Positions 12,757 to 51,120 of a stretch of 64,000 nt of DNA are shown piece by piece. Made by a program: the position numbers and the translations under genes. Source of the stretch: an uncultured Maribacter sp. (lineage in GTDB: Bacteria; Bacteroidota; Bacteroidia; Flavobacteriales; Flavobacteriaceae); the NCBI RefSeq assembly GCF_947495965.1, contig NZ_CANMBB010000009.1, positions 62,001-126,000 of the forward strand, in the 5' to 3' direction. Numbering within the stretch: position 1 is the first letter of the stretch; every line of letters begins with the position of its first letter. The notes below the pieces were generated by a model. The model saw nothing but the letters and a program-made list of their open reading frames with translations, had not been told where the DNA came from and ran no database searches.

Positions 12757-13839
12757 TTAATTATTTACAATCTTCTCTTGATGATTGATAGACTCTTGGT
12801 GAATTGCTTTAAACATTCTTAAAACAAACTCTTCACTTAATCCTTTAGATTCTCCTTCTAAAATCATGGCACCTAAAATTTGGTTCCAACGGTTGCTTTG
12901 TAATACGGCAACGTTTTTCTCTTTTTTAAGTTTTCCAATACTATCAGAAATTTTCATACGCTTCCCTAAAGATTCTATTAATTGATTATCAATAACATCA
13001 ATCTGTGCACGTAAGTTTGTTAATTCTTTATTATACTCTGCTTCTGGATCAGACTCTTTTCTAATTTTCAAATCTTTCATTATCTGAACCAGTTTTGTTG
13101 GTGTTACCTGCTGTGCAGCATCACTCCAAGCATTATCTGGATCAAAATGAGTTTCAATCATTAAACCATCAAAATTAAGATCCAATGCAGTCTGCGAAAC
13201 ATCAAAAATCATTTCTCTATTACCTGTAATATGCGATGGATCATTTATTAATGGTAAATCTGGAAATTTGTTTTTAAACTCAATAGCTAATTGCCATTCT
13301 GGAATGTTTCTATATTTAGTTTTCTCATACGTAGAAAAACCTCTATGTATTGCCCCTAAGTTTTTTATACCAGCAGTATGTAAACGCTCTATACCACCTA
13401 ACCATAAAGATAAATCTGGGTTAATTGGATTTTTTACTAGAACTATTTTATCTGTACCTGCTAAAGCATCTGCAATTTCTTGCATAATAAATGGACTTAC
13501 AGAAGTACGAGCACCAATCCACAATAAATCTATATCATGCTCTAAAGCTAGTTCTACGTGTGCTCTATTTGCAACTTCCGTACAGGTTTTCATACCTGTT
13601 TCCTCTTTTACTTTTTGTAGCCATTTAAGCCCTAAAATACCCACGCCTTCAAAATTCCCTGGACGAGTTCTTGGCTTCCAGATACCTGCTCTGTAATAAC
13701 TTACATCGGTATCTTTTAATTCATGAGCAATTTTTAACACTTGCTCTTCTGTTTCAGCACTACATGGCCCTGCTATTACTAGTGGATGATCTAGCTGCAT
13801 GTCATCCAACCATGTTCTCATTTCTTTTGAATTCTTCAT
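12757..13839 (-). CDS. Bifunctional DAHP synthase / chorismate mutase (type II)
   Basis: A 360-residue fusion. The N-terminal part (about 1-255) is a DAHP synthase of the KDPG-aldolase-like (type I beta) group, with AGPCSAETEEQ and RAGIWKPRTRPG near the start. The C-terminal part (about 265-355) is an AroQ-type chorismate mutase helical domain beginning LRAQIDVIDNQLIESLGKRM. It therefore opens the shikimate route and also carries out chorismate to prephenate, where the other operon products take over. It is the last gene of the operon, 5 bases after tyrA, and ends next to a strong terminator. The mutase domain may also act as the feedback sensor, as in related fusions (inference). Confidence 0.93.
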   Translation of the reverse strand: MKNSKEMRTWLDDMQLDHPLVIAGPCSAETEEQVLKIAHELKDTDVSYYRAGIWKPRTRPGNFEGVGILGLKWLQKVKEETGMKTCTEVANRAHVELALEHDIDLLWIGARTSVSPFIMQEIADALAGTDKIVLVKNPINPDLSLWLGGIERLHTAGIKNLGAIHRGFSTYEKTKYRNIPEWQLAIEFKNKFPDLPLINDPSHITGNREMIFDVSQTALDLNFDGLMIETHFDPDNAWSDAAQQVTPTKLVQIMKDLKIRKESDPEAEYNKELTNLRAQIDVIDNQLIESLGKRMKISDSIGKLKKEKNVAVLQSNRWNQILGAMILEGESKGLSEEFVLRMFKAIHQESINHQEKIVNN

Positions 13840-13844
13840 TTTAC

Positions 13845-14711
13845 TTATACTTTATTCTTTGTTTGTGGTATTCCGTTTAATATTTCTTTAATTTTATTGG
13901 TACTATTCATTTCATTATAAATGCCTTCATAATCATCTGCAAGCAGCATTTTCTTAAAGGCTGTAAGGTTGTTTATATACCCTTCTAAAGTTTCTACTAC
14001 ATTATCTTTATTTTGCTTAAAGATAGGTGTCCACATAGCTGGTGAGCTTTTTGCTAAACGAACTGTGCTTTCAAATCCACTCCCCGCCATGTCAAAAATA
14101 TCACGTTCATTTTTTTCTTTCTCAATAACCGTCTTTCCTAACATAAAAGAGCTTATGTGTGACAAATGTGATACGTACGCTATATGCTTATCATGTGCTT
14201 CTGGATTCATGTACCTAATACGCATTCCTAAAGCCTGAAAAATTGTTAATGCTTTTTCCTGTAATTTAAATGCTGTTTTTTCTACCTCGCATATTATATT
14301 AGTTTTACCTTCATACAAGCTATTAATTGCAGCAGATGGCCCAGAAAATTCTGTTCCAGAAATAGGGTGGCAAGCTAAAAAATTTCTCCTTTTTGGGTGC
14401 TCTTCTAACACTTTACATATTTCTAATTTTGTAGAACCTGCATCAAAAACAACACAATCATCATTAACTGCATCTAATATTTTAGGCAATTCTAAGATCA
14501 TTGCATCTACAGGAATACTTACAATTACTACATCTGCAATTGGCAATTGACTATAATCTGCTTGCTCTTCTATTATTCCTAAAGACAATGCCTCATCTAT
14601 ATGCTCCTGTTTTGCATCAATCCCATAAATAGTAACATTAGGCATTAAGCGCTTAATGTCTTTTACCATGGAACCTCCTATTAATCCTATACCAATTACA
14701 AATACATTCAT
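13845..14711 (-). CDS. tyrA: Prephenate dehydrogenase
   Basis: A 288-residue NAD(P)-dependent enzyme that oxidatively decarboxylates prephenate to 4-hydroxyphenylpyruvate for tyrosine. The N-terminal Rossmann motif GIGLIGGS and the catalytic region HPISGTEFSG are visible, followed by the helical dimerisation part. No ACT domain is attached. It sits between the aminotransferase and the DAHP synthase/chorismate mutase with gaps of 4 and 5 bases, so it is clearly part of the attenuated aromatic operon. Confidence 0.94.
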   Translation of the reverse strand: MNVFVIGIGLIGGSMVKDIKRLMPNVTIYGIDAKQEHIDEALSLGIIEEQADYSQLPIADVVIVSIPVDAMILELPKILDAVNDDCVVFDAGSTKLEICKVLEEHPKRRNFLACHPISGTEFSGPSAAINSLYEGKTNIICEVEKTAFKLQEKALTIFQALGMRIRYMNPEAHDKHIAYVSHLSHISSFMLGKTVIEKEKNERDIFDMAGSGFESTVRLAKSSPAMWTPIFKQNKDNVVETLEGYINNLTAFKKMLLADDYEGIYNEMNSTNKIKEILNGIPQTKNKV

Positions 14712-14715
14712 TTTA

Positions 14716-15861
14716 TTAAAATCTTGCTATTGCTTCTTTTATTTTTTCTTCTTTTACACATAATGAAAAACGTATGTACCCTTCCCCATTGCTCCCAAAA
14801 ATGGTTCCTGGAGCTATAAATATGTTTTTATCATATAATACCTCATCCACAAATTCTTCAGAGATTTTAGCTCCTTCTGGTAATTTTGCCCAAACAAACA
14901 TACCTACTGCATTTTTATCATATTTACAGTTTAGTTTATCTGCTAATTGAAACATTAAGTCTCTTCTTGAAGTATATACCTCATCTAAAGCATTAAACCA
15001 TTCTTGTCCACTTTGTAATGCCGCAATTGCCCCTTTTTGTATGCCATAAAACATACCAGAATCCATATTACTTTTTACTTTTAAAATAGCATTTATATGA
15101 GAGGCACTCCCTAAAACCATACCTACTCGCCAACCTGCCATGTTAAAGGTTTTACTTAAAGAATTTAATTCTAAAACTACATCTTTAGCATTCTCTAAAG
15201 CTAATATACTTGTTGGGTTTTTACTTAAAACAAAACTATATGGATTATCATTAACCAATAAAATAGAATTATCCTTTGCAAAATTTATTAGTTCTTGTAA
15301 TTTTTCTTTTGATGCTGTTGCTCCTGTTGGCATATGCGGGTAACTAACCCACATGATTTTTACTTTAGATAAATCTTGTTTTCCTAATTCTTCTAAATCT
15401 GGAAACCAATTATTTTCTGCCGTAAGATTATACTGCTTAGGTATAGCACCTACTAATTTAGTAACAGATGTATAGGTTGGGTATCCTGGATTTGGAATTA
15501 AAGCTTGATCTCCTGGATTTAAAAAAGCCATACTAATATGCATGATACCTTCCTTAGAACCCATTAATGGTAACACCTCATTAGTTGGATTAACAGTTAC
15601 TTCAAATTTATTTTTATAAAAAGCCACAATAGCCTCTCTTAATTCTGGCAATCCTTGGTAACTTTGGTATTGATGCGCACCGTTATCATTTAAAGAAGTA
15701 GCTACTGCTTTTATAACTGCTTCTGAAGGTGCCAAATCTGGGCTACCTATACCCATATTAATAATAGGTTTACCTTCAGATATTAATCCCCGTACCTCTC
15801 TTAATTTTTTAGAAAAGTAGTATTCTTCAACTGTTTTTAATCTTTCCGCAGTAGTAATCAT
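14716..15861 (-). CDS. Class I/II PLP aminotransferase (aromatic operon)
   Basis: A 381-residue fold-type I aminotransferase. The PLP-binding Lys lies in SLSKTFNMAGWRVG (about residue 234), with the DNPYS and NPGYPTY motifs upstream. Its ATG overlaps the TGA of pheA (ATGA). In this operon it most likely transaminates phenylpyruvate and 4-hydroxyphenylpyruvate (or prephenate) to the amino acids; this is inferred from context, since the family also contains aspartate, alanine and diaminopimelate aminotransferases. Confidence 0.9.
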   Translation of the reverse strand: MITTAERLKTVEEYYFSKKLREVRGLISEGKPIINMGIGSPDLAPSEAVIKAVATSLNDNGAHQYQSYQGLPELREAIVAFYKNKFEVTVNPTNEVLPLMGSKEGIMHISMAFLNPGDQALIPNPGYPTYTSVTKLVGAIPKQYNLTAENNWFPDLEELGKQDLSKVKIMWVSYPHMPTGATASKEKLQELINFAKDNSILLVNDNPYSFVLSKNPTSILALENAKDVVLELNSLSKTFNMAGWRVGMVLGSASHINAILKVKSNMDSGMFYGIQKGAIAALQSGQEWFNALDEVYTSRRDLMFQLADKLNCKYDKNAVGMFVWAKLPEGAKISEEFVDEVLYDKNIFIAPGTIFGSNGEGYIRFSLCVKEEKIKEAIARF

Positions 15862-16685
15862 GCTCTTGCATTTTTATATTCTCCTAATACTTTAAAATCC
15901 TCTGCCATAATCTCTAAGAGCGATTTTGCTTTGTCAAAATTACTATAATTATCAAAAGTAATATCTACAAAAAAAGCATACTTCCATGGTGTTTCTATAA
16001 TAGGGAGGGATTGTATTTTAGTTAAGTTTAAACTACAATCGCTCATTACATTTAAAACAGCTGCTAGGCTTCCTCTTTTATGGTCTGTTACAAAACGTAT
16101 AGACGCTTTGTTAATTTCTTCTTTAGGTAATTCTTTATTGATTGTTTTTACTATAATAAATCTGGTAGAATTATTTTTTATAGTTTGTATTTCTGGTGCT
16201 ATAATATCTAAATTATATAACTCTGCTGCAACATTAGGAGCTATAGCCGCAATATTCTTTAACTTCTTTTCTTGTATTTGTTTTGCGGTTTCTGCTGTAT
16301 CCACATCTTCTACCATTTTAATATGCGGATACGCTCTAAAAAACTCCTTACATTGCAATAATGCCATAGGGTGCGATCTAACTTCTTCTATATCCTCTAT
16401 TTTTTGCCCCTTTAACACCATAAGATTATGGTGAATATTAAGATAATGCTCTCCTATTATATGCAAATTATTATGATATACTAACGCATAATTAGGAATA
16501 ATAGAGCCTGCAATAGAATTTTCTATAGCCATAACCCCTTTATCTGCTTTACCTTGTAATAACTGATCTACAAGAAAATCAAATGATAAACATTCTAACA
16601 AATCTACATTATCTCCAAAATAGTCTTTTGCTACTTGGTGGTGGTTAGACCCTTTTATTCCTTGTATGGCTATATTTAATTTCAT
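15858..16685 (-). CDS. pheA: Prephenate dehydratase
   Basis: A 275-residue monofunctional enzyme that converts prephenate to phenylpyruvate. The N-terminal catalytic domain (about 1-180) has the NSTRFIIV motif with the essential Thr-Arg-Phe; the C-terminal part (about 195-270) is an ACT domain containing LTKIQSLPI, the usual phenylalanine-binding region, so product inhibition is expected. First structural gene of the operon, preceded by the Phe-rich leader and terminator described separately, and translationally coupled to the aminotransferase. Confidence 0.94.
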   Translation of the reverse strand: MKLNIAIQGIKGSNHHQVAKDYFGDNVDLLECLSFDFLVDQLLQGKADKGVMAIENSIAGSIIPNYALVYHNNLHIIGEHYLNIHHNLMVLKGQKIEDIEEVRSHPMALLQCKEFFRAYPHIKMVEDVDTAETAKQIQEKKLKNIAAIAPNVAAELYNLDIIAPEIQTIKNNSTRFIIVKTINKELPKEEINKASIRFVTDHKRGSLAAVLNVMSDCSLNLTKIQSLPIIETPWKYAFFVDITFDNYSNFDKAKSLLEIMAEDFKVLGEYKNARA

Positions 16686-16734: not shown

Positions 16735-16766
16735 AAAAAAAAAGTTCCGATATGTATCGGAACTTT
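16735..16766 (-). terminator. Attenuator terminator upstream of pheA
   Basis: On the minus strand AAAGTTCCGAT / ATCGGAACTTT forms an 11-12-bp stem with a tiny loop and runs into nine T (three of them in the stem). It lies between the leader peptide stop codon and the pheA start, about 50 bases before pheA, where a simple end-of-gene terminator would have no purpose because the preceding lipoprotein gene has its own terminator upstream. Its 5' arm can also pair with the 3' end of the leader peptide gene (GTACGGGACT with AGTTCCGATAC, ten pairs with one bulge and one G-U), an antiterminator. Confidence 0.85.
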
Positions 16767-16790
16767 ACTCTATATATGTTTTAAAATATG

Positions 16791-16862
16791 CTAGAACAGT
16801 CCCGTACTTCTTTTAAAAAAGAAATAGAATGTAAAACTGTTAAAGAAATATTTATTTATCAT
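16791..16862 (-). CDS. Phenylalanine-rich leader peptide of the aromatic operon attenuator
   Basis: A 24-codon frame (ATG to TAG) encodes 23 residues beginning MINKYFFNSFTFYFFF; 8 of 23 are Phe and 2 are Tyr, with YFF, FTFYFFF and a final Phe. This composition is like the PheL and PheM leaders of enteric bacteria. It is followed 24 bases later by an intrinsic terminator and then by pheA, and its last codons can pair with the terminator's 5' arm. Shortage of charged tRNA-Phe (or Tyr) should stall ribosomes on the Phe codons, free the antiterminator strand and allow transcription of the operon. The start codon is the only ATG in frame. Peptide function as such is not expected. Confidence 0.85.
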   Translation of the reverse strand: MINKYFFNSFTFYFFFKRSTGLF

Positions 16863-17004
16863 TTTCTTATAAAACTGGGGCTAATGTAATCATTATATTC
16901 AAAAACAAAAGCTTTAATCTTTATTTTTACTTATTTTTAAACATATGTAACATATAATAACAATAATTTTATATTTATCAATTATTGTTGCGAATAATTA
17001 AAAC

Positions 17005-17033
17005 AAAAAAAGCTCTCCGTTTGGAGAGCTTTT
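17005..17033 (-). terminator. Intrinsic terminator after the 372-residue lipoprotein gene
   Basis: AAAAGCTCTCC / GGAGAGCTTTT with a GTTT-complement tetraloop, followed by T residues on the minus strand, just downstream of the lipoprotein stop codon. Confidence 0.85.
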
Positions 17034-17055: not shown

Positions 17056-18174
17056 TTATTTTTTATTAAAATGATACTCGTATACTTCTTCTTCTCCTTC
17101 GAATGTATCTGTTTCTATAACAACTAACTTATCTGCAGAAAGCGTTATTTTTCCATCAAGAATTAAATAACCATCTTCTTCTACTCCTGATTCTATTTCT
17201 CCATTATACGTTTCTGTATATTCAAATTCTACCAATGTAAGTTTACTTTCTTCTTCATTATATGCCCAGTTACCTTTAGATGTATACGCATCATTCTCAT
17301 CTTTATAAACTAACTCGCAAGATTCTCTTGATGCATCCCAATCTAAATTCCTACTTGTATCTTCATAAGTATAAGAGTATGATCCATCACTATTGAAAGT
17401 AATTACTAGACTATCTGTAGTATAACAATATTCTATTGTAATTTCTTTATTTTCTCCACTAGCACAATCTAGAGTAGTTTCATAGGTATCATTGTCACAA
17501 TTTTCCTCTCCTACATTATATGTTTTCCCATCTTCTATTTCTTTTGTCATATTCCAATCTGCAACAAGGTTAGTATTACCACCCCAAGACTCTACAGTTA
17601 CACAAACTTCTTCTGGCTCACTAATATTTCCTTGACCATCATATACACAAATTACATAACAAAAAGTACCGGCAGTAACTTCTGCTTCAAAATTTACATC
17701 TATAGATGTGTCTTCACCTTTTCCTGTAATATTATTTTTAGTCGACTTTTTATTAGCAAAGAAACCTCTTTTAGTGGTTTTTGCTACTTTATCATATACT
17801 CCAGAAGTAGCTCCTACAGGAATATCAAAATAAGAATCTGCCATTCCGTTTTCGTCTTTCAATTGCACATAAGCACCTGCAAAACCTTGTGGAGCTTTAA
17901 ATTGTATATCAAAACCGTTTGTTTGAAAAGCAGTTTGCTTTTCATAGTCTAAACTAAATTCTATATCTCCGTTAGGAACTGGACTTCCTTGTTTCTTTGT
18001 AGCTCCTTCTATGATTACACCACTGCTTACCGCATTTACATCTAATAAAACTTCTTCTTTCTTATTAACTCCGTCTGGATCTGGGTTACTATCCAACTTG
18101 TTTTCATCATCTTTAGAACATGATAATGCAGCAATTGCTAAACAGCCCATTAAGAATACGTTTACTTTTTTCAT
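17056..18174 (-). CDS. Putative lipoprotein with lipocalin-like C-terminal domain
   Basis: A 372-residue protein with a lipoprotein signal (ALSCSKDDE, lipidated Cys about 19) followed by an acidic flexible linker with the DE-rich composition seen on surface-exposed Bacteroidota lipoproteins. The N-terminal half contains beta-rich sequence of unknown type; the C-terminal half starts LVADWNMTKEI and proceeds through ITFNSDGSYSYTYED and GNWAYNEEESKLTLVE, the pattern of lipocalin-like proteins (W near the start, NxDGxY strand, GxW strand). Monocistronic with its own terminator. Ligand unknown. Confidence 0.7.
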   Translation of the reverse strand: MKKVNVFLMGCLAIAALSCSKDDENKLDSNPDPDGVNKKEEVLLDVNAVSSGVIIEGATKKQGSPVPNGDIEFSLDYEKQTAFQTNGFDIQFKAPQGFAGAYVQLKDENGMADSYFDIPVGATSGVYDKVAKTTKRGFFANKKSTKNNITGKGEDTSIDVNFEAEVTAGTFCYVICVYDGQGNISEPEEVCVTVESWGGNTNLVADWNMTKEIEDGKTYNVGEENCDNDTYETTLDCASGENKEITIEYCYTTDSLVITFNSDGSYSYTYEDTSRNLDWDASRESCELVYKDENDAYTSKGNWAYNEEESKLTLVEFEYTETYNGEIESGVEEDGYLILDGKITLSADKLVVIETDTFEGEEEVYEYHFNKK

Positions 18175-44450: not shown

Positions 44451-47400
44451 TTAATTTTTTTCTACAATTCTTAATATATCTCCAAAAACACCTCTTGCCG
44501 TAACAGCTGCTCCTGCTCCCGCTCCTTGAATTACTAGTGGATTTTCCCCATAAGACTCTGTATATATTTCTATAATAGAATCTGACCCTTTTATTTGCCC
44601 TAAAGCGCTTTCTTTTGGTACGGAAACCAGTTTTACATCTAACTTTCCTTTTTCTTCTTGCAAATTTCCATGCAAATCACCTACATAACGCAAAACGTGA
44701 TTTGGTTTCTGGTTTTTCTTTATCTCATTAAAAGTATCATCTAACATTCCTAAATTATCTAAGAAATGATTTGTATCTCCTTTTTCTAATAAAGCAGGAA
44801 TCAAATTCTGGATTTCTACATCAGAAAATTCATTGTGCAATTCTAACTCTCTAGCTAGTATTAATAATTTTCGGCCTACATCATTCCCTGACAAATCCTC
44901 TCTTGGATCTGGCTCTGTAAAACCTTTTTGCATTGCATCTTTTAAAATAGTAGAAAAAGGCGCATTTACTTCTGAAAATGTATTAAAAATGTAACTTAAA
45001 GACCCTGAGAACACACCTTTTATCCTCGTAATATTCTCCCCTGATAAATGTAATAACTTAATAGTGTCTATTAAAGGTAAACCTGCTCCTACATTAGTTT
45101 CATATAAGTACTGTTTTTGATTTTTAACCAACTCTTCTCTTAAAAGCTGGTAATAATCAAAACCTAAAGTATTTGCTATTTTATTTGAGGATACTATATC
45201 AAAACCATTCTCTATAAAATCAAAATAATGCGCAACAAAATCTTCACTTGCTGTATTATCTACAATAATTAAATTTTCTAAATGATGTCTCTTAGCAAAA
45301 TCAAAAATAGTACTCAAAGTATAAGGCTCTCCCTTTTTATCTAACAAAGACTCCCAATTCTTAGAAACTCCTTTTTTACTCAATATTACTTTTTTAGAAT
45401 TTGCAACGGCAAAAACTCTTAAATCTAGACCTTTCCTTTTTTCTATGTTTTTGGCAGATTTTAATATCTGATCAATTAGTGTTCCTCCAACATTACCATG
45501 TCCAAAAACAGCTATATTAACCTTTTTACTCATTCCAAAAACTTGCCCATGCATTACATTTACAGCCTTATGTAAATCGGTCTTTTTTACTACCAAGCTC
45601 ACATTTTTCCCTGTAACTGTATTATTAAAAAGTAATGGTGTTATTTGGTTCTTAATTAAAGAATTGTAAGGCTTATGAAAAGTGCTCAAATCTTGTCCTA
45701 CAATAGAAATAACAGAAACATCCCCTACGACAGTAATTCTATTAACATCTTTTGATGTATAATCATGTGTAAATTCCCTATCTAAAGCTTGTTTTGCTTT
45801 CTGTGCAATATCTGCATCTACCACCAAACCAATTCCACGTTCTGAGGAACCTTGAGAAATAATACTTACACTAATATTACTATCCCCTAAGGCTTTAAAA
45901 ATACGAGCATCTACCCCTACTTTTCCTAACAATCCCCTACCTTCTAAATTAATTAAAGCAACCTTTTCTATTACAGAAATAGATTTAATACCGTCTTTGC
46001 TAGTTTTTGCACTAATTAAAGTTCCTTCATTATCACTATTAAATGTATTTAAAATACGTAAAGGAATATTTTTTTCTAGTAAAGGAATAATTGTTTTGGC
46101 ATGTAAAATAGTAGCGCCAAAATTTGCCAACTCATTGGCTTCACTATATGAAAGCTCAGAAATACGTTTAGCATCTGCTACAAAATCTGGATTTGCTGTA
46201 TAAATACCATCTACATGTGTATAATTTTGAAGCTCTGAAGCATCTAGGAAATTAGCCAATAAAGCCGCAGAGTAATTACTCCCATTTCTTCCTAAAGTTG
46301 TAGTTTCCCCATCTAAAGTAGAAGCTATAAAACCTGTAAAAACAGGTACGGTTCCTTGCGACAACAAACCAAACTCTCTTAAAACATTTTCTTTAGATAC
46401 TGTTTCTAAAACACTAGCATCTCCAAAATTATCATCGGTCTTAATAAGACTTCTAGAGTCCATTAACTTTGCCTTTACACCTTTTCCAATTAATAGTTTT
46501 GTTATTAATTTTGCAGATATTAACTCTCCATAAGCTAAAACCTGATCTTTAATCTTGGAACTGTAATCCCCTAATAAAGCAACCCCTTCATACAACTGAA
46601 ACAAACTTGCAAATTCCTCTGATAAATTTACATTTTTATAAGAATGCGTCTGGTATTTTTCAAAAGCTTCAAAGTCTTTTGCATAACTTTTACCAGATGC
46701 AGCTTTTTCTAAAATAACCTCTAGTTGGTCTGTAGCTTTTTCTCTTGCAGAAAGTACCACGGCAACTTTTTCTTTAGCCTTTACTTTATCTAAAATAATA
46801 TCTAAAACATGTTCTAAACCCTCTCCATTACTTAAAGATTTACCTCCAAATTTTAAGACTTTAACTTTAGTAGTCTCTTCTTCTTTATTAAAAATAGGAT
46901 TCAACAAATTTTGCATTTGATCAAACTCAATCAAAAAAGCATCATGTCCATGTAAAGACTGTACTTCGCCATAGGTAACATTACTATTTGCTTGGGCTAT
47001 TTGCTTAAATGTTTCTCTATTTTCTTTAGCAGTAAAAAATAAATCAGAATCTACTCCAATAATATGAATATTGGTTTCACTATTCTGCAAGTCTACAAAA
47101 GCTGATTCTCTATCTCTAGTAATATCAATAGACTTTAAAAGCTGATTCATTAGTTTATAGGCCGATAATTGAAAACGTTCTTTCAATTTATCTCCATGAT
47201 GCATTAACCAACTTTCTACATTAAAAACCTGCAACTCTTCATTAGTACTGCGTTTAAAACGCTCATTAAAAGATTCTGGCGTTCTATAACACAACATTGC
47301 ATGCATACGAGCATCATGTACAGGTTGCTTAGAATTAATTAAAAACTGCTCTTGTATTTGGCAGTTTCCTATTAACCAATCTGTAGACTTCCAGTCTGAT

Positions 47401-47837
47401 GCCACAGGGATTAAATGCTCTGTTAAATTAGGGTTTAGCGCTGCCATTTCCCAAGCAATACCACCTCCCATAGAGCCCCCAATTATTGCAAATAGATTAG
47501 AGATTTTTAAATCTTTAAGACCCAATAAAAATATTCTCGCAACATCTCTTGCAATAAAATCTTTATAATTTTCTATTACAAAACTATCGTATCCATTTCC
47601 TGGAACGTTAAAAGCCAGAATAGTATACTTATCCGTATCTATACATTTTCCTTGCCCTACTATTGCAGACCACCAACCATCTTTACCAGTAACATTAGAG
47701 TTCCCAGTTAAAGCATGATTTACCAGCACTATTGGAGCACTATGCAAGGGTTTTCCAAAAAGTTGATAGGATAGCGAAATATCCTGAGATACCCCGCTAT
47801 ATGTTTTGTATTTATTAATTGTAAGATGATGTAACAT
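44451..47837 (-). CDS. Fused homoserine O-acetyltransferase-like / aspartokinase / homoserine dehydrogenase
   Basis: A 1128-residue three-part protein. Residues about 1-310 are an alpha/beta-hydrolase of MetX type with nucleophile GGSMGGG (Ser122) and the acid/base parts VDSDLF (Asp265) and HGHDAF (His298). About 324-590 is an aspartokinase (VKVLKFGGKS at 329-334), followed by ACT regulatory repeats (about 620-765), then homoserine dehydrogenase (about 770-1128; FGHGNVGGT, and GVFSGSLSYIFNTF). One polypeptide thus carries out the first and third common steps from aspartate and the activation of homoserine for methionine. The MetX part is about 50 residues shorter than free MetX. Under the SAM riboswitch. 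No sign of frameshift; coding frame is continuous. Confidence 0.9.
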   Translation of the reverse strand: MLHHLTINKYKTYSGVSQDISLSYQLFGKPLHSAPIVLVNHALTGNSNVTGKDGWWSAIVGQGKCIDTDKYTILAFNVPGNGYDSFVIENYKDFIARDVARIFLLGLKDLKISNLFAIIGGSMGGGIAWEMAALNPNLTEHLIPVASDWKSTDWLIGNCQIQEQFLINSKQPVHDARMHAMLCYRTPESFNERFKRSTNEELQVFNVESWLMHHGDKLKERFQLSAYKLMNQLLKSIDITRDRESAFVDLQNSETNIHIIGVDSDLFFTAKENRETFKQIAQANSNVTYGEVQSLHGHDAFLIEFDQMQNLLNPIFNKEEETTKVKVLKFGGKSLSNGEGLEHVLDIILDKVKAKEKVAVVLSAREKATDQLEVILEKAASGKSYAKDFEAFEKYQTHSYKNVNLSEEFASLFQLYEGVALLGDYSSKIKDQVLAYGELISAKLITKLLIGKGVKAKLMDSRSLIKTDDNFGDASVLETVSKENVLREFGLLSQGTVPVFTGFIASTLDGETTTLGRNGSNYSAALLANFLDASELQNYTHVDGIYTANPDFVADAKRISELSYSEANELANFGATILHAKTIIPLLEKNIPLRILNTFNSDNEGTLISAKTSKDGIKSISVIEKVALINLEGRGLLGKVGVDARIFKALGDSNISVSIISQGSSERGIGLVVDADIAQKAKQALDREFTHDYTSKDVNRITVVGDVSVISIVGQDLSTFHKPYNSLIKNQITPLLFNNTVTGKNVSLVVKKTDLHKAVNVMHGQVFGMSKKVNIAVFGHGNVGGTLIDQILKSAKNIEKRKGLDLRVFAVANSKKVILSKKGVSKNWESLLDKKGEPYTLSTIFDFAKRHHLENLIIVDNTASEDFVAHYFDFIENGFDIVSSNKIANTLGFDYYQLLREELVKNQKQYLYETNVGAGLPLIDTIKLLHLSGENITRIKGVFSGSLSYIFNTFSEVNAPFSTILKDAMQKGFTEPDPREDLSGNDVGRKLLILARELELHNEFSDVEIQNLIPALLEKGDTNHFLDNLGMLDDTFNEIKKNQKPNHVLRYVGDLHGNLQEEKGKLDVKLVSVPKESALGQIKGSDSIIEIYTESYGENPLVIQGAGAGAAVTARGVFGDILRIVEKN

Positions 47838-47868: not shown

Positions 47869-49140
47869 TTATTGTGCAAAAGCCTGTTCTAAATCGGCTT
47901 TTAAATCTGCAATATCTTCTAAACCAACAGATAAACGTATTAAATCTGCTCCTACACCTGCATCTATTTGTTGTTGCGCTGTTAATTGTTGGTGTGTTGT
48001 ACTCGCTGGGTGAATAATAAGTGATTTTGTATCTCCAATATTTGCTAAAAGAGAAAATACTTTAGTAGCATCTGTTACTTTTTTAGCAGCTTCAAATCCT
48101 CCTTTTAATCCAAATGTAACTAATCCACTTTGTCCTTTAGGTAAATATTCTTTTGCTAAATCATAGTACTTGCTACTTTTTAATCCAGGGTAATTTACCC
48201 AAGCCACTTCTTCTCTACCTTCTAACCAAGTTGCCAATTCTAATGCGTTAGCACTATGTTGTTTTATTCTTACGTTTAGAGTTTCTAAACCTTGAATAAT
48301 TTGAAAAGCATTGTAAGGACTTAAAGCTCCTCCAAAATCACGCAATCCTTCTAAAATTAATTTAAAAGTAAATGCTGCAGCTCCTAAAGCTTCGCTATAC
48401 ACCAAACCGTGGTATCCTGCAGATGGCTCTGTAAACTCAGGAAATTTTCCGTTTGTCCAATCAAATGTACCTGCATCAATAATTGCCCCTCCTAAAGATG
48501 TTCCTTGACCGCCAATATATTTGGTAAGTGAATGTATTACAAGATTTGCTCCGTGCTCAATTGGATTTAATAATGCTGGTGAAGCAACCGTATTATCTAC
48601 AATAAAAGGAACTTGTGCTGCTTTTGCTTGTGCAGAAATAGCTTTAAGGTCTAATACATCTAACTTTGGATTTCCTAAAGATTCTACAAAAAATGCTCTT
48701 GTATTATCTTGTACTGCTTTTCCAAAGCTTTCTGGGTCAGATGCATCTACAAAAGTGGTTGTAATACCTAACCTTGGTAAGGTAACATTTAACAAAGTAA
48801 ATGTTCCTCCATATAAACTACTAGAGGCTACTATATGATCTCCCGCTTTTAACAAAGTCATTAATCCCGTTGCAATAGCAGAGGTTCCTGAAGCAAAAAC
48901 AACAGCACCAATACCACCTTCTACAGCTGCTAAACGATCTTGTAATATTTGATTTGTTGGATTATTTAATCTTGTATAAATAAATCCTAATTCTTTTAAT
49001 GCAAATAAATTTGCTGCGTGTTCTGTATCCTTAAAAACATAAGAAGAAGTTTGGTAAATAGGTACCGCTCTAGTTCCTCCTGTTTGTGTTGTGTCATGCC
49101 CTGCATGTAATGCGTTTGTTGAAAATTTTTGATCACTCAT
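47869..49140 (-). CDS. metY: O-acetylhomoserine aminocarboxypropyltransferase (sulfhydrylase)
   Basis: A 423-residue PLP enzyme making homocysteine directly from O-acetylhomoserine and sulfide. PLP Lys in IHSLTKYIGGQGT; NALHAGHDTTQTGGTRAVPIYQTSSY at the N-terminus (split here by function, not gap), TRLNNPTNQILQDR, and C-terminal LANIGDTKSLIIHPASTTH. First gene of the operon under the SAM-I riboswitch; sulfide would come from the cys operon nearby. Confidence 0.93.
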   Translation of the reverse strand: MSDQKFSTNALHAGHDTTQTGGTRAVPIYQTSSYVFKDTEHAANLFALKELGFIYTRLNNPTNQILQDRLAAVEGGIGAVVFASGTSAIATGLMTLLKAGDHIVASSSLYGGTFTLLNVTLPRLGITTTFVDASDPESFGKAVQDNTRAFFVESLGNPKLDVLDLKAISAQAKAAQVPFIVDNTVASPALLNPIEHGANLVIHSLTKYIGGQGTSLGGAIIDAGTFDWTNGKFPEFTEPSAGYHGLVYSEALGAAAFTFKLILEGLRDFGGALSPYNAFQIIQGLETLNVRIKQHSANALELATWLEGREEVAWVNYPGLKSSKYYDLAKEYLPKGQSGLVTFGLKGGFEAAKKVTDATKVFSLLANIGDTKSLIIHPASTTHQQLTAQQQIDAGVGADLIRLSVGLEDIADLKADLEQAFAQ

Positions 49141-49266: not shown

Positions 49267-49380
49267 GTTATCTGCCTTATAAATCATTCTGATTTCTCTG
49301 GTAGAATTTAGCACCTTCTTTGCATGGCAAAGGGTTGCTAAGGCTTCACAGGGTCTAATCCCTCCGCCTTTCTTGATAAC
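49267..49380 (-). ncRNA. SAM-I (S box) riboswitch aptamer
   Basis: On the minus strand the sequence follows the S-box consensus: GTTATCAAGAAAGGCGGAGG, then GGATTAGACCCTGTGAAGCC, TTAGCAACCCT, GGTGCTAAATTCTACC and the closing P1 strand AGATAAC, which pairs with GTTATC at the 5' end. The kink-turn (AAGAAAGG...), the GAAGCC/GCAACC junction core and the P3-like GGTGCTAAATTC segment are all in place. It should switch off the metY operon when SAM is plentiful. Confidence 0.95.
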
Positions 49381-49411
49381 AATTCAATATGTATTTGAAC
49401 TTAATATGCTG

Positions 49412-49532: not shown

Positions 49533-50789
49533 TTACAAGTTAAAACTAGCTTTTACTTTATCTACCATATCTAGTTTCTCCCAAGTAAATAGTTCTACTT
49601 CTTTTTCTACTTTACCATTATAAGGAGATTCAAAGACTTTAGTAATAGTTCTTGGCTCTTTTCCCATATGACCATATGCTGCTGATTCTAAATAAATAGG
49701 ATTACGTAATTTTAAACGTTCTTCTATAGCAAACGGACGCATATCAAACAATTGCGCTACTTTCTCTGCAATAGCACCATCTGTTACATCTACATTTGCT
49801 GTTCCATAAGTATCTACAAAAATAGAAGTTGGTTCTACTACTCCAATCGCATAACTTACTTGTACTAATATTTCATCAGAAACACCAGCCGCCACTAAAT
49901 TTTTAGCTATATGCCTTGCTGCATAAGCCGCACTACGATCCACCTTACTTGGGTCTTTTCCACTAAAAGCACCGCCACCATGTGCACCCTTACCACCGTA
50001 AGTATCTACAATTATTTTACGCCCTGTTAAACCGGTATCTCCATGAGGTCCTCCAATTACAAATTTCCCTGTTGGGTTAACATGGTACGTAATTTCATCA
50101 TTAAATAAAGCTTGGATATTTTCTGGTAATTGCTCCTTAACTCTAGGTATTAATATTGCTACAATATCTTCCTTAATTTTAGCCAACATAGCTTCATCAT
50201 CCGTATTAAAAGCATCATGTTGTGTAGATACGACAATAGTATCTATACGTTGTGGTACATTTTCATCGGAATATTCTATAGTTACTTGCGACTTGGCATC
50301 TGGTCTTAAATAACTAATTTCTTTATTCTCTCTTCTTAACTCTGCTAATACCTGAAGAATTTTATGAGAAATATCTAATGCCAATGGCATATAGTTTTCT
50401 GTTTCTTTAGTTGCATAACCAAACATCATTCCTTGGTCTCCTGCCCCTTGCTCTTCTTTTTCGCCTCTATCTACCCCTTGGTTTATTTCTTTAGATTGCT
50501 CGTGAATAAGAGATATAACACCACAAGAATCTCCACTAAATTGATATTCTCCCTTTGTGTAGCCTATTTTATTAATAACTTCTCTTGCTATATTTTGAAC
50601 ATCTAAATAGGTATTACTTTTTACCTCTCCTGCTAAAACTACTTGCCCTGTTGTAACAAGAGTTTCACAAGCAACTTTACTTTCGGGGTCAAAAGCTAAA
50701 AAACTATCTAATAATGCATCACTAATTTGATCCGCAACTTTATCTGGGTGTCCTTCACTAACAGATTCTGATGTAAATAAATAAGACAT
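49533..50789 (-). CDS. metK: S-adenosylmethionine synthetase
   Basis: A 418-residue enzyme forming SAM from methionine and ATP. Signatures: SESVSEGHPDKVADQISDALLD at the N-terminus, GAGDQGMMFGYA, GGPHGDTGLTGRKIIVDTYG and GGGAFSGKDPSKVDRSAAY. Slightly longer than the usual 380-390 because of inserts in the middle. No SAM riboswitch precedes this gene; it has its own candidate promoter. Confidence 0.97.
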   Translation of the reverse strand: MSYLFTSESVSEGHPDKVADQISDALLDSFLAFDPESKVACETLVTTGQVVLAGEVKSNTYLDVQNIAREVINKIGYTKGEYQFSGDSCGVISLIHEQSKEINQGVDRGEKEEQGAGDQGMMFGYATKETENYMPLALDISHKILQVLAELRRENKEISYLRPDAKSQVTIEYSDENVPQRIDTIVVSTQHDAFNTDDEAMLAKIKEDIVAILIPRVKEQLPENIQALFNDEITYHVNPTGKFVIGGPHGDTGLTGRKIIVDTYGGKGAHGGGAFSGKDPSKVDRSAAYAARHIAKNLVAAGVSDEILVQVSYAIGVVEPTSIFVDTYGTANVDVTDGAIAEKVAQLFDMRPFAIEERLKLRNPIYLESAAYGHMGKEPRTITKVFESPYNGKVEKEVELFTWEKLDMVDKVKASFNL

Positions 50790-51120
50790 AATTCTTTTTT
50801 AAAAAGGAAAGTAGCGCGCAAAATAAAAAAGCAAATAGATAGAATACCCTATATAAGGCGTAGTAATATCTGTTTTAGCATTTTTTAGAGGTTGCAAGCA
50901 GTCAAATCTTTCCTCGTAGATTGAAAGTGTAAAAGTAGTGCTATTCAGAAATATGTCAAAATAGAATCTCTTAAAAAATTATACTTTTATCTTATTAATT
51001 ATCTATCCTGAAAAAAATTCATCGGATATTTACGTAAACATTTTACCATCCTATTGTTATCTTGTATATTGTATCGCAATATTTTTTCTTATTATCATAA
51101 CTATAAAAAACATCTAAAAA
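50790..51120. other. Divergent intergenic region between metK and the deoxynucleoside kinase gene
   Basis: 331 bases of A/T-rich sequence. It holds the metK promoter candidate near 50,945 and an untranslated metK leader of about 130 bases with no riboswitch pattern I recognise. No clear promoter was found for the plus-strand gene. Confidence 0.5.
50930..50959 (-). promoter_or_regulatory. Candidate metK promoter
   Basis: TTG (in TTGACA) followed after 19 bases by TACTTTTA, one mismatch from TAnnTTTG, on the minus strand about 140 bases before the metK ATG. Confidence 0.55.

Follow-up and report, generated by a model that had tools for sequence, protein, structure and literature searches.

A probable ribosome-mediated transcription attenuator with an aromatic-rich leader upstream of pheA in Flavobacteriaceae

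Does a ribosome translating a very short gene decide whether RNA polymerase reaches the pheA operon of an uncultured Maribacter sp.? The question is raised by a stretch of 64,000 nucleotides from that organism (the window), in which a small phenylalanine-rich frame and a terminator hairpin precede the genes for phenylalanine and tyrosine synthesis. The comparative analysis described here, made on sequence throughout, indicates that this is very probably a classical ribosome-mediated transcription attenuator. To our knowledge, amino-acid control in Bacteroidota is little worked out.

The leader gene and its alternative pairings

The leader gene (Table 1) has 8 Phe and 2 Tyr codons for its 23 amino acids and no Trp codon, just as the original prediction of a 24-codon Phe/Tyr-rich gene had described it, and its start is 177 nt from pheA. 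The four genes that follow had been proposed to form an aromatic operon, and all four enzyme identities are borne out by Pfam and NCBIfam. Their order (pheA, aminotransferase, tyrA, DAHP synthase) is kept in 191 family loci (3 exceptions) and in 14 of the 28 low-identity loci with enough sequence; 4 loci overall were too short for this count. As in classical attenuators, the leader ORF carries codons for products of the operon and an intrinsic terminator lies between it and the first gene. The terminator, with the nine T foreseen for it, is at 16766–16741 (11 pairs, a 4-nt loop and a T-rich tail). Scanning 2 kb gave 2 terminator-like sites, against a mean of 0.5 in shuffled sequence.

Table 1. 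Features of the leader region and operon in the window
Feature	Position	Strand	Remarks
Leader peptide gene MINKYFFNSFTFYFFFKRSTGLF	16791..16862	-	ATG, 23 aa, stop TAG; conserved in relatives
pheA, prephenate dehydratase	15858..16685	-	Pfam, NCBIfam
Class I/II aminotransferase	14716..15861	-	Pfam, NCBIfam; aromatic role suggested by context
tyrA, prephenate dehydrogenase	13845..14711	-	Pfam, NCBIfam
DAHP synthase with C-terminal type II chorismate mutase domain	12757..13839	-	Pfam, NCBIfam
Region 1 AACAGTTTT	16833..16841	-	Leader codons 8-10; main 5′ arm of the 1:2 hairpin
Region 2 GTACGGGACT	16798..16807	-	Partner of region 1 or region 3
Region 3 AAAGTTCCGATAC	16754..16766	-	5′ arm of terminator and 3′ arm of antiterminator
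Region 4	16741..16751	-	3′ arm of terminator; runs into the nine T
Promoter-like site TTG-N17-TACATTAG, Bacteroidota type	16881..16908	-	-46 to -19 from the leader ATG

Pairing of GTACGGGACT (16807–16798), near the end of the leader gene, with AGTTCCGATAC (16764–16754) would form an antiterminator. The ten pairs claimed for it are recovered on recomputation, with one G-U and one bulged base, and are conserved with compensatory changes in relatives. The 128-nt leader RNA folds to −27.5 kcal/mol, compared with −14.8 (sd 2.7) for shuffled versions (0 of 200; z −4.67). Its minimum-energy fold also contains a hairpin of leader codons 8–16 with the leader end, the 1:2 hairpin, and the consensus fold of 50 aligned relatives has the same two structures, 1:2 and 3:4. 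The two-way switch originally envisaged was thus right in its pairings and incomplete in its parts, since the 1:2 hairpin had been missed; with it, the classical set of 1:2, 2:3 and 3:4 is complete.

From these parts we infer translation of the leader, ribosome stalling, termination and relief of termination in the cell. RNA polymerase would start just 5′ of the leader gene, with a ribosome translating the aromatic-rich leader behind it. At scarcity of charged tRNA-Phe or tRNA-Tyr, the ribosome would slow on codons 5–16 and cover region 1, leaving region 2 to pair with region 3 once this is made. The 3:4 terminator would then be blocked, and pheA, the aminotransferase gene, tyrA and the gene for DAHP synthase/chorismate mutase would be transcribed. 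Given enough aromatic amino acids, the ribosome would reach the stop codon and cover region 2, with formation of 3:4 and cessation of transcription. With no ribosome on the leader, 1:2 and 3:4 would both form and transcription would likewise stop.

A start just 5′ of the leader is consistent with the promoter-like site there, which had been missed in the original prediction. Promoters of Bacteroidota have the consensus TTG and TAnnTTTG. Of 226 loci, 176 have the motif TANNTTNG beginning between −40 and −21 relative to the leader ATG, and 7 have it in a control window at −120 to −101; in the set with one locus per genus, 86 of 114 have it at the former position. Accompanied by TTG at 17–23 nt, it is present at most 100 nt upstream in 112 of 226 loci compared with 7 of 226 control windows. 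Transcription starting downstream of the terminator would have left the leader out of the RNA; the motif occurs between terminator and pheA in just 7 of 226 loci, and is instead placed upstream of the leader.

Spread and covariation among relatives

The original prediction had looked to related genomes for a Phe/Tyr-rich frame at the same position. pheA was found in 186 of the 199 family genomes searched, and 118 of the 185 others were fetched (mostly one per genus, with closer genera sampled more densely), giving with the window 119 loci. An aromatic-rich leader is upstream of pheA in 117 of these, and both leader and terminator were detected by scan in 114. One locus has a leader for which no terminator was found by the scan (L113), in another the leader is at −457, beyond the scanned stretch (L023), and a third has a GTG start (L117). 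The low-scoring cases were inspected. Two of the 119 have no leader upstream of pheA (L104 and L118). All 80 named relatives have leader and terminator; 12 of them share all 300 nt upstream of pheA with family loci and so are not independent. The closest named relative is another uncultured Maribacter (NZ_CANMRY010000007.1), with pheA 99% identical.

Could the terminator be that of the upstream gene, with the Phe-rich frame a by-product of AT-rich DNA? The region is AT-rich, T-rich DNA readily encodes Phe, and frames of this kind, small aromatic-rich ORFs with a score of at least 4, do arise by chance: 19 of 2380 shuffles have one, as do 2 of the 119 antisense strands. However, such ORFs are upstream of pheA in 106 of the 119 family loci, and the frame, its aromatic content and its spacing from the terminator are kept in the 117 loci with a leader, with purifying selection on the peptide. 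Moreover, the upstream gene ends at 17056 and has behind it a separate terminator at 17033–17008, absent from the earlier description, so the leader terminator is not that gene's end. A by-product origin is accordingly left with next to no probability.

Beyond the family, 57 of 197 genomes sampled across the class had a match to the window's pheA, and 47 loci from other families were fetched. Aromatic leader and terminator are present in 28 of the 47 (one of them, L225, a weak case) and were not found by the scan in 19. Two loci have a leader with no terminator found by the scan (L248, L250), and one has a leader only with a non-ATG start (L213); for the rest the scan gave no leader. The distribution suggests that classical attenuation upstream of pheA dates far back in the class Bacteroidia, and that among the Flavobacteriaceae sampled it is close to universal. 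[In one other family, the best small ORFs upstream of pheA contain WPWPLC or WLWPLC (L209, L210); lacking a Phe/Tyr run, they are possibly a different type of leader.]

The pairs of all three helices change together. For 1:2 and 3:4, changes on both sides are seen in 10 of 28 pairs (3 of 18 in 1:2 and 7 of 10 in 3:4), and none of 500 shuffles, which ignore the relatedness of the sequences, matches any of five measures. For 2:3, changes on both sides are seen in 6 of 8 pairs and 0 of 500 shuffles are as high, a result that rests on 9 cells; 19 of the 50 sequences do not form the outermost pair. When partners were slid as a control, pairing dropped: the original 96.9% and 92.3% became at most 61.4% and 49.5%, respectively.

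This bears on whether the leader acts mainly on translation or mRNA stability, for instance through re-initiation or coupling, with the terminator incidental. Leader genes near structural genes have been proposed to aid translation by re-initiation (PMC4833913). Such a role is hard to reconcile with the distance of the leader start from pheA, with a strong terminator in between, and with the maintenance of 2:3 by compensatory changes, and is judged very unlikely to be the main one. The classical Phe-leader interpretation gains support from the frames of the relatives, the placement of the promoter motif and the compensatory changes in the antiterminator.

Folding with a stalled ribosome

Alternative folds were modelled for distinct leaders of the near family (96), the rest of the family (84) and the remaining set (29). 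In that order, 3:4 forms in 96/96, 84/84 and 28/29, and 1:2 in 96/96, 76/84 and 26/29. When a ribosome occupies the last aromatic codons and transcription has not reached region 4, 2:3 forms with at least 5 pairs in 96/96, 81/84 and 26/29. In silico, then, the antiterminator would exclude the terminator and be freed by a stalled ribosome. Partners from different genomes are predicted to fit less well: swapping regions between genomes clearly weakens 2:3 in the two groups of greater diversity (from −11.15 to −8.70 kcal/mol in one and from −13.87 to −10.79 in the other), and weakens it little in the close clade (−13.68 own versus −13.00 swapped).

Moving the stalled ribosome along the leader places limits on where stalling could matter. 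In the clade with 23-aa leaders, 2:3 forms in all leaders for a stall at each aromatic codon from 5 to 16; one codon past the last aromatic codon the value drops to 0.47, and two codons past it to 0.05 (with 11 nt taken as covered by the ribosome; 8 nt shifts this boundary one codon downstream). Stalls at Trp codons (n=128) allow 2:3 in 96%. The boundary in the window is softer than that of the clade, because a stall at codon 17 or at 19–21 still leaves six 2:3 pairs there. The early boundary is weak everywhere, with 2:3 at 0.88–0.90 by codon 2.

Terminator and antiterminator energies were compared, a check that the original prediction had put forward. Before region 4 is made, a stall gives 2:3. 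When all the RNA of the window's leader is made, the terminator is the minimum even with the ribosome stalled (−15.3 versus −14.4 kcal/mol for 2:3 alone), so relief would need co-transcriptional commitment. RNA without a ribosome, folded before region 4 is made, contains five or more 2:3 pairs in 57/96, 52/84 and 19/29 leaders, and 2:3 is thus not cleanly excluded by 1:2 in the model. The 1:2 hairpin is nevertheless predicted to spare the terminator when no ribosome stalls.

Codon content, precedents and other leaders

The leader peptide is under purifying selection (pN/pS 0.23), and all 87 distinct 23-aa leaders keep start and stop codon. Codon 7 is aromatic in 86 of these 87 (56 W, 16 Y and 14 F; the other leader has N). 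The window's leader has Phe there, as does that of its nearest relative (L121). As a change from W to F or Y needs two base substitutions, aromatic character at this codon would be selected through the meaning of the codon. Phe and Tyr codons are present in each of 114 family leaders and a Trp codon in 75 of them (means per leader 5.66 Phe, 3.50 Tyr and 0.66 Trp). Among the 29 leaders of lowest identity (the 28 of other families and L217), 8 have a Trp codon.

Retention of the Trp codon for RNA pairing only was considered and is held unlikely: the middle base of TGG forms a G-U pair where TAT would give A-U, so that TAT pairs at least as well, and TGG is biased to the reading frame (124 in-frame occurrences in 203 leaders, against 25 and 23 in the other two frames). 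No claim is made that the Tyr codons are due to tyrA, as their number does not track that gene: the 29 leaders of lowest identity average 3.94 Tyr codons where tyrA was found downstream (17 leaders) and 3.67 where it was not (12).

The codon content also bears on what works the terminator. A structured 5′ RNA followed by a terminator is the usual anatomy of metabolite riboswitches and T-boxes, and the 5′ element of pheA is listed in PMC9723704 merely as structured and possibly original. Against control by either of these in place of a translating ribosome, the conserved information is in-frame codon content, with aromatic codons exchanged by two-base changes. In addition, an Rfam scan of the region gave no family at the gathering cut-off, and the best E-value in a permissive scan was that of Phe_leader (RF01859; 26.8 bits for the window and 31.8 for L004, short of the cut-off of 55). 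A riboswitch or T-box is accordingly given very little credence, and a translating ribosome is the preferred agent.

The pheA leader of E. coli is not known to carry codons for aromatic amino acids other than Phe. The present leaders resemble the pheA attenuator of E. coli and Salmonella in being Phe-rich, in the 1:2, 2:3 and 3:4 alternatives and in having the terminator before pheA; they differ in that every counted leader has Tyr codons and most of those in the family have Trp, and the operon here also includes tyrA and DAHP synthase. A 2004 survey reportedly covered some attenuators of Bacteroidetes. Attenuation of E. coli pheA is documented (PMC1183508).

Nearer precedents make the novelty smaller than the original prediction, which took descriptions of such leaders in the phylum to be few, had supposed. 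In Flavobacterium psychrophilum a structured element is reported 5′ of pheA that is also conserved in further Flavobacteriaceae genera and has no Rfam hit, and the same paper notes strong indications of attenuation by leader peptides in front of amino-acid operons (PMC9723704). Family and gene are those of the present leader, and the two are probably the same element, though the main text of that paper gives no peptide or pairings and does not name the operons with leader peptides. Small ORFs of Bacteroides have been described as reminiscent of attenuation leaders (PMC7366714). Bacteroid-trp (PMC2864571; Rfam RF01692) is likewise from Bacteroidota and has a leader peptide and terminator before an aromatic operon, but for another amino acid and operon, and the pheA leader gives no match to RF01692. 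The kind of control is therefore known, and an element at pheA in Flavobacteriaceae has been reported before. A search for a Bacteroidota phe leader in literature of partial coverage led to PMC9723704 and the Rfam trp leader and to no description of the present peptide; the passages found likewise did not mention its three helices, its mixture of codons or its distribution across the class. Nothing departs from the classical mechanism; its breadth and the mixed aromatic leader are unusual.

Other leaders were looked up in the same genome for chosen genes (trpE-like, hisG, ilvD and homoserine dehydrogenase). Leaders with matching codons precede the trpE-like gene (MRNKKTNTWWWSNLRKTT), hisG (MRNKTTHHHFHTGYQAR) and ilvD (MKLTRTVVSTIFIVP), and a terminator hairpin comes after each of these leaders. 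[The loci are L257 (539–655), L259 (562–677) and L263 (reverse strand), with WWW, HHHFH and Ile/Val codons.] The trpE-like leader scores 45.9 bits against Bacteroid-trp RF01692 (cut-off 49), and the name of its gene is provisional since this scores under the curated cut-off of its family. Directly upstream of a thrA-like gene is a Thr/Ile-rich frame, MYDKITDILFSTLTNGTTTIGTTTPLG (L264, 1214–1297), which was not counted as an attenuator as it has no clear terminator.

Elsewhere in the window, riboswitches of two SAM classes are about 1.5 kb apart: SAM-II long loops at 50865–50921 (−) and SAM-I/S-box at 49289–49382 (−). Each is upstream of an ORF (49533–50789, 418 aa, and 47869–49140, 423 aa); by eye these resemble S-adenosylmethionine synthetase and a PLP enzyme of the methionine pathway. 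A single 1128-aa ORF at 44451–47837 (−) matches a homoserine dehydrogenase domain and, partly by eye, appears to join aspartokinase/homoserine dehydrogenase to a part that resembles alpha/beta-hydrolases (homoserine acetyltransferase-like).

What the pheA attenuator senses is put forward more tentatively than the attenuator itself. In most of the family one attenuator may read Phe, Tyr and Trp together, since codons for all three are located where a stalled ribosome is predicted to release the antiterminator; in the window's Maribacter lineage, replacement of the Trp codon by Phe would have narrowed the sensor. This reading falls somewhat short of probable. The mixed aromatic leader, in place of a Phe-only one, poses the question of whether a single leader can integrate the supply of Phe, Tyr and Trp, and its natural sequence variants are a ready set for following the co-evolution of leader codons with RNA pairing. 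If the reading is true, shortage of any of the three amino acids would raise expression of an operon that includes DAHP synthase, the entry to their shared pathway.
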